NCBI GenBank assembly: GCA_023382935.1
Contig: JAHDXL010000003.1
Coordinates: 303,559-367,558 of the forward strand
Origin: Phycisphaerales bacterium
GTDB taxonomy: Bacteria > Planctomycetota > Phycisphaerae > Phycisphaerales > UBA1924
Length of the DNA stretch: 64,000 nucleotides
Reading direction: 5' to 3'
In this document: positions 52,031 through 56,091 of the stretch, piece by piece
Layout of the letters: every line of letters begins with the position of its first letter
How positions within the stretch are numbered: position 1 is the stretch's first letter
The notes under the pieces: model-generated
Told to the model about the DNA's origin: nothing
The model's database searches: none
What the model saw: the letters and a program-made list of their open reading frames with translations, nothing else
Made by a program: the position numbers and the translations under genes

Positions 52031-52756
52031 TCAGCCCCAGAAATCTGCTCCTTCTACGCCGTCACGCGTGTTGTGCAGGCGCTGGTGATCGAGCGGGTGG
52101 CGAAACGGGTTGACAACTGGTGCGGTTGCCCCGGCCGGAGTGCGGACCCGCACTGCCCCGTCGGCGGTGATCGCTGGAGTTCCCTCTGCCAAATCGTCCC
52201 CCACGTGTCGCGGCTGTTCGCGGAGAAACCCCAACTCCTCGTCCCAGAGCAGCACCTTGCCCGATGGATACCTCAGGCCGGAAACACGCTGCACCTGCCG
52301 ATACTCCGGCCGCGCCGTTGCTCCTCCACGCCACAGCAGCGGAGAGCCAACAAAAGACGTACTGTATACATAGGAACTGGGAAAATCCTTCCGACGACTG
52401 CCCGGGGACATGAAGACCTCGGGCATCTGGTCGATGGCAAGGTAGTTGTATATCACTCCCGGCCAGACGGAAGCAATCTCCCAGTATGGCTAACCGATCC
52501 AGACCAGGTCACCGACTTGAAACATCCTCCCTTCGATGACTGCGGGATACCGACCATCCGAGTCATTTGCATATATTCCAAAAGTTGAGTAGATCTGACG
52601 GAGATTCGAACAACTCACCGTCCGACGCGCCGCGTCGCGAACTCCCGCCACAGACGGCAGGAGTATGGACAGCAGAATAGCCACGATCCCCACACAGAGC
52701 AGGACTTCTACCAGCGTCACCTCGCGCGCCTGTCGTACGCTTGCGTGAGTTGCCAT
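52031..52756 (-). pseudogene. Prepilin-like protein interrupted by an in-frame amber codon
   Basis: The 5' part (88 residues, 52756-52490) has a type IV pilin/pseudopilin methylation leader (REVTLVEVLLCVGIVAILLS) and a CSNLRQIYSTFGIYAND segment. It then stops at TAG 52490-52492. In the same frame, reading continues to 52031 with a segment typical of the planctomycete prepilin C-terminal half (GLRYPSGKVLLWDEELGFL and AITADGAVRVR). One base change would join both parts. Either it is a nonsense-inactivated gene, or the stop is read through. Confidence 0.7.
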
Positions 52757-52796
52757 GGCATCACCTGGCCGGACCCCCGTTCGGCTTCCATGGATC

Positions 52797-53528
52797 TTAG
52801 ACCGGCGGATCCACCACCATCACACCGTCTGGCACGTCATACAACCGCGTTCGAATCAAGACCCACTCCTGCGTCCCCGGGTTATGTGCAAACTCGATAC
52901 CAAGGGTTGCCTCGAACTGCGGACTATCTGCCGCGTAGGCGCGAAACAGCCCTTTCACACGCAACTCATATGACTCACTCGGTGACCGCGCCCACCCCGG
53001 GCGAGCCTCTGGTCGCTCACTCATGCGCATCGAATCGGCGTTCGCATCGGACAGAGCGGCGCCGCGGCTGATTCGATGCATCACTTTCGCGCTGGCGGGG
53101 TCGAACCTCGCGTCGGCAAAGCACCTCCGAAACGCCAGCCACTGCTCACTGTCGCCGCTTTCGCCCTTCCCGATCGGCTCAACTCCCATGGACTCCAGGT
53201 ACCCATTGAATTCAGCGAGATGCTCCGAGAGATATGCCGTCATCACATCGCGCACCACGCCTCGGAATGAGTTCAGCGTCGCCGCGTCCACTCGCTCGGT
53301 TGCATGGATCGACCCCGCAATTCCCTCGACCACTGCCTCTGCCCCCGAGCCCGCCCACAACGGGTACTCTCCGGAAGTCTTGAGGGGATCGAGCACCGGA
53401 ACCACCTGCGAGTTCTGTGCCGGACCGCGAGTCCCGGTCGATGATGGCCAGAACCGCGCCACAGATACGGACAACATCGCCATCCCGGCGCCCGCAATCA
53501 CAACAGCCGCTGCGTATGACCACTTCAT
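52797..53528 (-). CDS. Membrane-anchored or exported protein of unknown function
   Basis: 243 residues from ATG 53528, with AAGGAA upstream. The N-terminus is a hydrophobic anchor (YAAAVVIAGAGMAMLSVSVA). The rest is hydrophilic with a helical middle (FRGVVRDVMTAYLSEHLAEF) and a beta-rich C-terminus (WVLIRTRLYDVPDGVMV). No domain is recognised. It lies between the Cys-rich gene and the prepilin gene, spaced by 14 and 40 bases, so it is probably part of the same small operon. Confidence 0.6.
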   Translation of the reverse strand: MKWSYAAAVVIAGAGMAMLSVSVARFWPSSTGTRGPAQNSQVVPVLDPLKTSGEYPLWAGSGAEAVVEGIAGSIHATERVDAATLNSFRGVVRDVMTAYLSEHLAEFNGYLESMGVEPIGKGESGDSEQWLAFRRCFADARFDPASAKVMHRISRGAALSDANADSMRMSERPEARPGWARSPSESYELRVKGLFRAYAADSPQFEATLGIEFAHNPGTQEWVLIRTRLYDVPDGVMVVDPPV

Positions 53529-53542
53529 GGCGTTTCCTTCAC

Positions 53543-53836
53543 CTATCGAGGAATCGGCTCCCAGTGGATGGTGTGACAATGAGTCAGATCTTCCTTGCAG
53601 AAGTGCGTCGCCGAGACGATGCAGGACGTCGTTTCTCCGGTCTTGCGTTTCAGAACATTCTCGCAGCAGTTCTTGCCCTCGGGGCAGGTCCAGGGCATCA
53701 CATGATGGATGCCGTCGCAGTCGATCCAATCAAGTTCGCACTCCGCGTCCGAAGCAAGCGCCACCGATGCCACCGAACACACAACCGCGATGCAGATCCC
53801 CAACCCGCTGACCACACGGCTGACCTTCATTTGCAC
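53543..53836 (-). CDS. Secreted 8-Cys mini-protein
   Basis: 97 residues. The signal peptide (GLGICIAVVCSVASVALA) is followed by a mature region of about 68 residues with eight cysteines (AEC, DC, TC, NCC, SC, FC and HC), enough for four disulfides. No family is recognised. A GTG at 53836 with GAGG 7 bases upstream is a better start than the ATG two codons later. It immediately follows a MauE-like membrane protein gene and overlaps the extended end of its last frame. Confidence 0.65.
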   Translation of the reverse strand: MQMKVSRVVSGLGICIAVVCSVASVALASDAECELDWIDCDGIHHVMPWTCPEGKNCCENVLKRKTGETTSCIVSATHFCKEDLTHCHTIHWEPIPR

Positions 53837-54288
53837 GGGTCGCCCTCTTTATATTCCGTTCCCTTTCCGTCGAGCGGGCGAGTCGAACAGGCCACGCCGC
53901 CGCGAACGCCGCCATCGCCAGAGGAAGATTTCGTCCGAATATTGCCATGAGAGGGTGACTGCCCCACTCAGGAAGACCGCAGCCGCAAGGCGTCAGGTCG
54001 TGGCGCAACCATTGCAACGCCGGGCTCGAAGAAACCGCGACAAGGAACAAGCCCGTGACAATGAGCGCCCCCCCTTGTGGGTAGCCCCAACAAGCCATGC
54101 AGCAAGCGCAATCTCAAGCCCGATTAACCCCCAGGCGACCCAAAGAGCGCTGGCTGGAGTCAGTCCCCAATGTGCGACGAGGACGCGGAAGGTGGGTCAA
54201 CATCCCAAGACTTCGCAGCCGCCCCAGCAAGCAGGATCGCAGCGAGAAGGCACGCAACCAAGAACGCAAACGGAGGGCTTTGGGCCAT
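53730..54288 (-). pseudogene. MauE/DoxX-like redox-associated membrane protein, frame broken twice
   Basis: ATG 54288 has TTGGAG 7 bases upstream. The three pieces lie in three successive frames. First is a helix (FAFLVACLLAAILLAGAAAKSWD). After a break near the CCCC at 54165-54168 comes LWVAWGLIGLEIALAAWLVGA. After a break at the C7 tract 54068-54074 comes GALIVTGLFLVAVSSS, followed by LTPCGCGLPE (CxC pair) and HPLMAIFGRN. Adding one G to each tract restores a single frame of about 140 residues. MauE-type proteins support disulfide formation in periplasmic partners. The recognisable part ends near 53871; the frame itself runs to 53730. Confidence 0.6.
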
Positions 54289-54448: not shown

Positions 54449-54913
54449 CTACGCCTTCATCTCCGCGGGGTCCACGCCCTCTTCGATCGCGTGGATCTTC
54501 GCGACGCGTCGCGCGTGGCGCCCGCCCTCAAACTCGGTCTTGAGCCACACCTCGACGATCTTGTCGATGAAGCGCTCGCCGAGCAAATCGGCCGAGAGGC
54601 ACAGCACATTCGCGTTGTTATGACTCCGCGACAGTTGGGCCGTCAGTTCGTCATGCACGACCGCGGCCCGCACGCCTTGAATCTTATTGGCGGCGATCGA
54701 CATGCCGATGCCCGTGCCGCAGATGAGAATACCCAGGTCGGCCTGCCCCGCCTTGATCGCCTGCCCCACCTTCCAGGCCGGTTCAGGATAGTCGCACGCC
54801 TGTTCCGAGCATGTGCCCAGCCATTGCGTCTGGTAGCCCTGCGAACTGAGCAGTTCCACCAGGTGGGCCGTCTGCTTATATCCGCGATGATCCGAACCCA
54901 GCGCGATCCTCAT
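54449..54913 (-). CDS. rpiB: Ribose-5-phosphate isomerase B
   Basis: 154 residues, the normal RpiB length. It interconverts ribose 5-phosphate and ribulose 5-phosphate. GSDHRGYKQT, CGTGIGMSIAANKI and RSHNNANVLCLSADLLGE are diagnostic. Its start overlaps the stop of the TsaC-phosphatase gene (ATGA), so the two are coupled. Confidence 0.95.
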   Translation of the reverse strand: MRIALGSDHRGYKQTAHLVELLSSQGYQTQWLGTCSEQACDYPEPAWKVGQAIKAGQADLGILICGTGIGMSIAANKIQGVRAAVVHDELTAQLSRSHNNANVLCLSADLLGERFIDKIVEVWLKTEFEGGRHARRVAKIHAIEEGVDPAEMKA

Positions 54914-55995
54914 GCCGACAACTCCTTCACCCGACGCTCGATCAGTGTTCGCAAGATGCGGCTCGTTTCCAGGTACGCCTCCAGCGGCATGCCCACCGGG
55001 TCAGCGATGTTCCCTGACGGATCCAGTTTCTGCACGCGGTCGCGGGCCGACGGCTCGATCTCCAGCACGCGCTGCAGGTGCGCGTCGGTCATCACATAGA
55101 TCGCCGCCGCCCGTCGCACCAGTTCCCGTGTCAACTGCCGCGTCCGGTGCGATGAAATATCAATGCCCATCTGCGCCAGGGCCTCGACGGCCTCGACCGC
55201 CACGGGCAGCCCGTCGGCCGTCGCCACCCCCGCCGACAGCACCGTCGTCAGTTCCTCGGGTTTCAACATGCTCCGCGCGATGCCCTCGGCCATCGGGCTG
55301 CGGCAGGTGTTGCCCGTGCACACGAACAGCACCACGCGCTCCACCGCGTGCATGATCTCGGCGCTGCTCACCGCGCCTTCGCTCTCGACCTTGAACCCAC
55401 CTCCGGCGTGCAGCCGCACCGTGGTCGCGGGCTTGCCGATCGAGAGCGCCCCCGCGTCGATCACGCACCCCACGCGCTGGTCATGCACCTCGCCCAGGCG
55501 CCGATCATCCTGCCCGCCGCGGCCCGCCCCCCAGCCGGCCGCCGCGGCCCGGATCATCACCACCGGCCGCGGCACGTTCTCCAGCACCGCGCTGCTGACC
55601 GCCGACCCCGGCACGCGTACCCGCAAGGCCGTCCCGTCTTCGATCACGCCGCGCGCCACGCCCAAACGCCCACACACCGCCGCCAGCACGTCCTCGGGCA
55701 ACTCGATCACGAACCGCACCGGCCCGGGCAGAAACCGGCTCAGCAGCCGCCGATGCGCCAGCGCCGTCATCTCCAGCCCTTCGACCGCGGCCTCGGCCGT
55801 CGGCGCGTGCCAAGTCAGACTCCCACCCCCCGCACGCGACAACTCCCGCAACGCCTCGACCGAGCGCGGGTCGTCCGCACGCCCGGCCACGCCGTACACC
55901 GTGTCCGTCGGAATCACCACCAGTCGCCCGGACAGCAACGCCTCCGTCGCCGCCCGGGCCACCCGTTCCGAGGTCGCCCCCGGCACTCTCAGCAT
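54910..55995 (-). CDS. Fusion of TsaC/Sua5-type domain and low-molecular-weight phosphatase (YwlE-like)
   Basis: 361 residues from ATG 55995 (a GTG six codons upstream is an alternative). The N-terminal half (1-205) is a YrdC/Sua5 threonylcarbamoyl-AMP synthase fold (VVIPTDTVYGVAGRA). The C-terminal half (about 220-361) is a LMW phosphatase with CTGNTCRSPMAEGIA and the general-acid loop DPSGNIADPVG. Thr in CTGNTCRS is the residue that gives Bacillus YwlE specificity for phosphoarginine, whereas tyrosine phosphatases usually have Ile/Leu there. Together with rpiB it mirrors the Bacillus ywlC-ywlE-ywlF order. Confidence 0.85.
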   Translation of the reverse strand: MLRVPGATSERVARAATEALLSGRLVVIPTDTVYGVAGRADDPRSVEALRELSRAGGGSLTWHAPTAEAAVEGLEMTALAHRRLLSRFLPGPVRFVIELPEDVLAAVCGRLGVARGVIEDGTALRVRVPGSAVSSAVLENVPRPVVMIRAAAAGWGAGRGGQDDRRLGEVHDQRVGCVIDAGALSIGKPATTVRLHAGGGFKVESEGAVSSAEIMHAVERVVLFVCTGNTCRSPMAEGIARSMLKPEELTTVLSAGVATADGLPVAVEAVEALAQMGIDISSHRTRQLTRELVRRAAAIYVMTDAHLQRVLEIEPSARDRVQKLDPSGNIADPVGMPLEAYLETSRILRTLIERRVKELSA

Positions 55996-56091
55996 GGTTG
56001 GACTTTCTGCCACGAGCGAGTATTCGAGGTTGGCCGGCGCAAATCAATTCGCCACACCCGCCCAAAACGGGCCATCGCCGCGCCACCCCGC

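Follow-up and report, generated by a model that had tools for sequence, protein, structure and literature searches.

What might a MauE-like membrane protein do when its gene stands in line with those of a small Cys-rich exported protein, an anchored protein and a type IV prepilin? The question is raised by positions 52031-54288 of the window, by which we mean the whole 64-kb stretch of Phycisphaerales DNA analysed; an earlier note had claimed just this gene set there, as a candidate disulfide-maturation cassette. Rechecking of the coordinates bears out the claim: all four genes are present, all on the minus strand, and the grouping is more than chance, the same slot in a sister species being filled by the same set. 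The gene of the MauE-like protein, with four predicted transmembrane segments (TM), runs from an ATG at 54288 down to 53830, the frame being broken and the lower end taken from alignment, and carries a CGC motif (53979-53987) in the loop that joins predicted TM3 to TM4. It is followed by an exported mini-protein of 97 aa (53543-53836) with a GTG start and a hydrophobic signal, whose mature part, its start placed by eye, has about 69 residues (the note had about 68) including 8 Cys; by a 243-aa protein (52797-53528) with a single N-terminal TM or hydrophobic helix and an outside domain, perhaps NTF2-like; and by a type IV prepilin-like protein (52031-52756), interrupted by a premature in-frame TAG codon at 52490-52492. 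The composition thus stands as claimed, whereas the breaks in mauE (frameshift) and in the prepilin (TAG) had gone unstated, though the note spoke of a 'strain with the intact cassette'.

The genes flanking the cassette are presumably rpiB-like, next to a low-molecular-weight-phosphatase-like gene, and phosphofructokinase-like. By eye, a single ORF at 54910-56013 appears to join a YrdC/Sua5-like part to a low-molecular-weight-phosphatase-like part. The whole 64-kb window gave no Rfam match at the gathering threshold, and no tRNA gene was found in it.

The sister species (G002), which shares its genus with the window genome (G000), carries an undamaged set of all four genes at the corresponding place (locus L011), encoding a MauE of 154 aa, a Cys protein of 97 aa, a membrane protein of 244 aa and a prepilin of 241 aa; the Cys-protein gene begins before mauE has ended, the two sharing 10 bases. 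In DNA alignment with this copy the window mauE shows three gaps of one base each, and the window pieces, joined with X at the breaks, match the intact 154-aa MauE over query residues 7-158 at 70%. The frameshifts deprive the window copy of a whole-protein PF07291 score, and the family call is made through the sister MauE (L011:6389-6853), which matches PF07291 at 4.2e-10 and 40.5 bits (cut-off 27). Identities between window and sister are 84% for the Cys protein, 65% for the membrane protein and 73% for the prepilin, with dN/dS ratios of 0.146, 0.214 and 0.177 respectively, set against 0.057-0.097 for three neighbour genes of the same species pair; by this measure the three cassette genes are evolving fast yet are selected as proteins. 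Since they are so selected between the two species, either the damage to mauE and to the prepilin of the window is recent or it is an assembly error; the window copy has probably lost its function recently, or been mis-assembled. Other kits of this type in the window genome look intact, and its other MauE proteins could serve the window mini-protein in trans. One G002 record, RHKP01000011.1 (L053), is titled 'Cyanobacteria bacterium CYA N2_1'; we place it in the genus of the window genome, and the label looks wrong.

Conservation of the neighbourhood, on which the proposal had been staked beforehand, is found, though it is sparse. All four genes are open and in the same order at three loci in three genera (G002, G305 and G068). 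At L051 and L054 an open C-terminal half of MauE, with its CGC, lies directly before a 4-Cys protein, the membrane protein and the prepilin following; at L057 MauE is split over two frames, and in G015 and G063 it is truncated. Signs of decay are seen in several genomes (the window, L013, L039, L057). Profiles of the single proteins find the membrane protein in at least 12 of 400 genomes of the order, the Cys protein in at least 6 of 400, two of these matches being weak enough to be chance (G182 and G382; E 0.004 and 0.008), and the prepilin in at least 28 of 397 genomes of the class, all three figures being lower bounds with 7-13 candidates scored per genome. Some of these cassettes do without an adjoining MauE: the window genome has a second set of this kind (C2, L003), present also in G001, and a six-frame check revealed no MauE beside the Cys-protein cassettes at L003, L012 (G001 likewise) and L052 and in G030, G281, G271 and G032. 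G000 (with the paralogue L003), G001, G030, G281, G271 and G032 each have other MauE genes elsewhere. The Cys gene at L049 lies at a contig end, where a MauE neighbourhood cannot be judged.

MauE is abundant in these genomes. PF07291 hits number 16 in G000, 16 in G002 and 2-9 in each of ten further genomes, 87 in all, and only one of 14 control genomes has a hit over the cut-off. Leaving aside seven partial matches (G002, one; G015, two, one of them L013; G030, one; G324, one; G271, two), we examined 80 of the 87 in the 12 genomes, and 77 of the 80 bear a CxC pair. In the first four genomes (G000, G068, G305, G032) the pair is present in 37 of 39 hits and reads CGC in 32 of the 37; the remaining two, L140 and L141, were excluded, as was L181, likewise without CxC, from the 41 of the further genomes, though it was retained in the fusion count below. 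Scores at two such loci are well clear of the cut-off of 27 (L038, 67.9 bits; L041, 48.6), and the fragment at L039 scores 18.5, under it. A different use of MauE is seen at L150 (G068:C1:3056857-3057183), where a protein of about 388 aa with a MauE domain has a C-terminal part, thioredoxin-like by eye, with a CHHC motif, and adjoins a gene reading like a flavin-dependent oxidoreductase or halogenase.

How regularly do these MauE proteins have an exported Cys-rich neighbour? We counted an ORF as such a neighbour if it lay on the same strand within 1.8 kb, had at most 230 aa and a hydrophobic N-terminal core followed by 40-150 residues with at least 6 Cys and few Arg, and had coding-like third positions. 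Three settings of this rule were fixed on the first four genomes and reused unchanged on eight further ones. At the strict, middle and third settings, a Cys-rich neighbour is found at 14, 19 and 24 of the first 37 CxC MauE, as against 0, 0 and 1 of 37 on the opposite strand, and 1, 1 and 2 ORFs in 113,918 bases of the same strand 3.2-5 kb away. The eight further genomes, in which several loci stop at contig ends, gave 12, 17 and 20 of 40, with 1, 1 and 1 of 40 on the opposite strand and 1, 1 and 3 ORFs in 105,316 bases of the more distant same-strand DNA. Pooled at the middle setting, the neighbour is thus present at 36 of 77 loci on the same strand vs 1 of 77 on the opposite one. An initial version of the rule, with an 11-residue core, caught 15 of 39 loci and one such ORF in 128,836 flank bases; run over the 64-kb window, it matched the 8-Cys ORF alone. 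One of the two ORFs caught by the rule at L134 (6337-6690) looks spurious.

Reading of the loci in the first four genomes raises the count: 29 of the 37 CxC MauE adjoin a Cys-rich exported protein. At least seven of the 37 are read as having none (L126, L128, L147, L150, L151, L153, L157), and three of these (L126, L151, L157) seem to represent a single, ordinary type of MauE. The eighth exception, L155a, adjoins a 65-aa start that may belong to a broken exported protein rich in Cys; a minus-strand reading of L155:9055-9252 (G305:C45) gives an exported-looking Cys-rich start beside this MauE, seemingly split in two frames. The two partners also tend to keep company between species: among the 11 G000 modules whose Cys protein could be matched among G002 MauE loci, eight have that match in the locus of their own MauE's best match. 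These eight fall on five G002 loci, because paralogous modules share best matches, and include five reciprocal-best MauE pairs. In these genomes MauE thus stands repeatedly beside a Cys-rich protein with an export signal. The linkage reaches well beyond the window cassette and strengthens the interpretation offered in the note, which is borne out in part.

Could the CGC pair and the Cys of the neighbour meet? In 49 MauE chosen from the 77, the content of K+R per residue is 0.17 in the TM2-TM3 loop, 0.18-0.19 after TM4 and 0.01-0.10 in the CGC loop. Because positive charge is low around the CGC and high in the TM2-TM3 loop and after TM4, the CGC loop should face outside; there it would meet the exported protein, and the C-terminus of MauE would lie inside, where the signal of a fused prepilin must be. 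CGC peptides act as oxidants and isomerases. No thioredoxin or MauD-like partner was seen in the cassettes.

The reading we favour, and consider fairly probable, is that of a module, recurrent among planctomycetes of the Phycisphaerales type, which supplies an exported mini-protein with a CGC-bearing MauE dedicated to its oxidative folding and links the two to an anchored protein and a pseudopilin. The small Cys-rich protein would be exported via its signal peptide; the dedicated MauE, with its CGC in the outside loop, would act on it as thiol-disulfide oxidant or isomerase and so bring about folding; and the N-anchored, perhaps NTF2-like, protein and the type IV pseudopilin would act afterwards, most likely to hold the folded protein or to move it through the envelope. 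We infer the action of MauE on the mini-protein's Cys, whether making disulfides or shuffling them, on better grounds than this last, hold-or-move step.

The Cys-rich proteins themselves are consistent with disulfides. In fifteen untruncated members of the window-type family, that of the window among them, three Cys are invariant and one Gly nearly so; 13 have 4, 8 or 10 Cys and two an odd number, the truncated L039 protein being left out of this count. Mini-proteins of 27 further loci have an even Cys number in 22 cases, so that, with mature ends set by eye throughout, the pooled figures are 35 of 42 even and 7 of 42 odd. AlphaFold2, given the 15 sequences, predicts with confidence an all-beta fold of five strands (mean pLDDT 90.3, pTM 0.69), and both the mostly even counts and this model fit disulfide bonding. 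Pfam gave nothing over cut-off for the Cys proteins, and Foldseek with the 8-Cys model found no relative at E<=0.001, the best, at E 2.1, being rejected. A PDB sequence search with the Cys profile had a best E of 0.47, rejected as chance. In a second structure comparison the highest Z, 3.2, belongs to a non-three-finger protein, and 12 of the 17 rows listed are three-finger by title, at Z 2.1-2.9. The three-finger fold is known mainly from animals, and the modelled likeness, of five strands and 8 Cys, is a lead only, too weak to claim.

Oxidation need not be the main task of MauE: it might instead keep the mini-protein's Cys reduced, or help to install a cross-link or cofactor. MauE and MauD serve methylamine dehydrogenase, the small subunit of which holds tryptophylquinone as well as disulfides, and five of ten Cys proteins compared here have a WxC, with Trp two residues before Cys. 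The disulfide role proposed for MauE of the methylamine dehydrogenase cluster is called 'speculated' in PMC7794033. WxC is missing, however, from the other five of the ten; neither a cofactor enzyme nor a mau gene was found among the cassette proteins scanned with Pfam and NCBIfam, and the window neighbours read as non-mau. Profile comparison, besides, indicates that the Cys family of the modules with MauE-prepilin fusions is unrelated to that of the window, so that Cys are the common feature of the two linked families compared. We therefore think a reducing or cofactor-installing MauE unlikely, and return to the oxidative module and its remaining two partners.

The 243-aa protein may be an NTF2-like domain following one TM. 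Modelled from the sister copy (pLDDT 83.6, pTM 0.72), it has a single N-terminal helix and an alpha+beta domain; the 50 rows listed for the model in a structure comparison, at Z 5.4-6.5, are mostly NTF2-like by title, TraM and VirB8 among them. TraM is the best match (Z 6.5, rmsd 4.0 over 103 residues), and the best Foldseek E is 0.098; the comparison is suggestive. The NTF2-like domains of TraM and VirB8 also follow a membrane anchor. Pfam gave nothing over cut-off for the 243-aa family, or for those exported partners of 350-400 aa, found in other modules, that were tried. The membrane proteins of the fusion modules match the window 243-aa family at a probability of 79.6 (E 1.5e-5, 91 columns), which is suggestive of kinship.

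The prepilin assignment rests on the N-terminal signal: against the N_methyl cut-off (PF07963, 21.2 bits) the sister prepilin scores 22.5, that of L013 21.5 and that of L003 20.9, just under, and NCBIfam recognises pilin models only among the cassette proteins, the generic prepilin domain TIGR02532 being over cut-off for two of three prepilins. The window genome has six T2SSF-type ORFs (12 hits), so that it does possess pseudopilin machinery; the search there for a prepilin peptidase gave no clear candidate, the one Peptidase_A24 match being under cut-off.

The partners are arranged in several ways. Besides the order of the window type (MauE, Cys protein, membrane protein, prepilin) we find Cys protein, membrane protein and a MauE fused to the prepilin (L132, L134, L135, L159, L161); a large exported protein, Cys protein, MauE and prepilin (L127 and L131, and, with fusion, L158 and L038); Cys protein, exported protein and MauE (L136-L139); and exported protein, Cys protein and a MauE fused to a further part of about 400 aa (L143-L145, in G068). 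In this last arrangement the fusion comes directly after an exported protein with 8-10 Cys, and at L143 Pfam recognises the MauE/DoxX part only, the C-terminal part of about 400 aa being unmatched. The four modules at L136-L139, all in G000, are similar to one another, with an exported protein of 320-390 aa and no prepilin seen nearby.

Fusion of MauE to a prepilin recurs: by motif it is seen at 8 of 37 and 13 of 41 loci, 21 of 78 together, and at 10 more of the first 37 MauE a separate prepilin ORF lies within 3 kb. Fusions were also read in G305 and G032, and found by motif in others; a survey for full-length fusions in a sample of the phylum found them in one of 343 genomes (G000), a lower bound, since scoring stopped at 5 candidates in each genome. 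In an alignment of eight fusions the CGC and the prepilin signal are both conserved, and in a PDB search the pilin part of these eight lines up from residue 1 of solved mature pilins; a prepilin peptidase could therefore free it.

The fusions bear on a further alternative, that the linkage reflects fast-turnover gene islands which carry prepilins, MauE and Cys-rich proteins with no mutual action. The sparse spread of the cassette, its membrane protein being found in at least 12 of the 400 genomes, and its decay in the window and at L013, L039 and L057 are what such islands would leave behind. Yet the joining of MauE and prepilin in one polypeptide, the overlap of MauE and Cys-protein genes, and purifying selection between the sister species all argue for joint function, and make islands of unconnected genes decidedly improbable. 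Least probable of all is that the Cys bind a metal or an iron-sulphur cluster, MauE and pilin being part of a redox surface structure: the proteins are small with many Cys, and pilin-type partners can serve surface redox structures, but mostly even Cys numbers, a small all-beta fold, export and a CGC loop outside fit disulfides better.

Beyond the folding module itself we can sketch, tentatively and as something we would sooner doubt than accept, a hitherto unrecognised envelope system of wider scope, belonging to a single planctomycete lineage, with many exported Cys-rich mini-proteins of more than one family, each with a private CGC-bearing MauE tied to a pseudopilin, the two being sometimes one polypeptide from which a peptidase releases the pilin; folding and pilus-driven delivery would then be one machine, present in about a dozen copies in the window genome.

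To our knowledge the chemistry of MauE (PF07291) is still unsettled. The dozens of natural pairs of MauE and candidate substrate found here, with substrates small enough to be produced and to have their disulfides mapped, make the question of what MauE does directly testable; if our reading is true, the module couples disulfide formation to export in bacteria in a new way. The earlier note knew of no described system of this composition, and we too found no description of such a gene set in the literature, among the matches listed, which lie mostly outside subscription journals.

Comparison with known systems brings out what is shared and what is particular. Like the MauE that works with MauD in the methylamine dehydrogenase cluster, those described here are PF07291 membrane proteins that would serve an exported Cys-rich protein; unlike it, they have a mini-protein as partner, an added prepilin and anchored protein, fusions at 21 of 78 loci and up to 16 hits per genome. 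Disulfide bacteriocins have dedicated thiol-disulfide helpers of the BdbA/BdbB type: the provision of a substrate with its own redox helper is the same, but the membrane family is another and no pilin is involved. In Streptomyces, the decRiPPter study (PMC7794033) describes mauE homologues in three RiPP candidate families, likewise beside a small ribosomal peptide gene and outside methylamine metabolism; in contrast to the candidates as described there, the mini-proteins here have hydrophobic export signals and pilin-type partners. Scanning of the cassette proteins revealed no RiPP-modifying enzyme, the best precursor match (PF14404) reaching 12.4 bits against a cut-off of 25. Planctomycete prepilins, finally, are reported in the main text of PMC8567305 to be expanded, with the N_methyl signal and, for the most part, an SBP_bac_10 domain; unlike those prepilins, in whose description that main text does not bring in MauE, the prepilin here is tied to a MauE and a Cys-rich protein, and, if our reading is true, folding and handling of such proteins is a likely role for part of the expansion.
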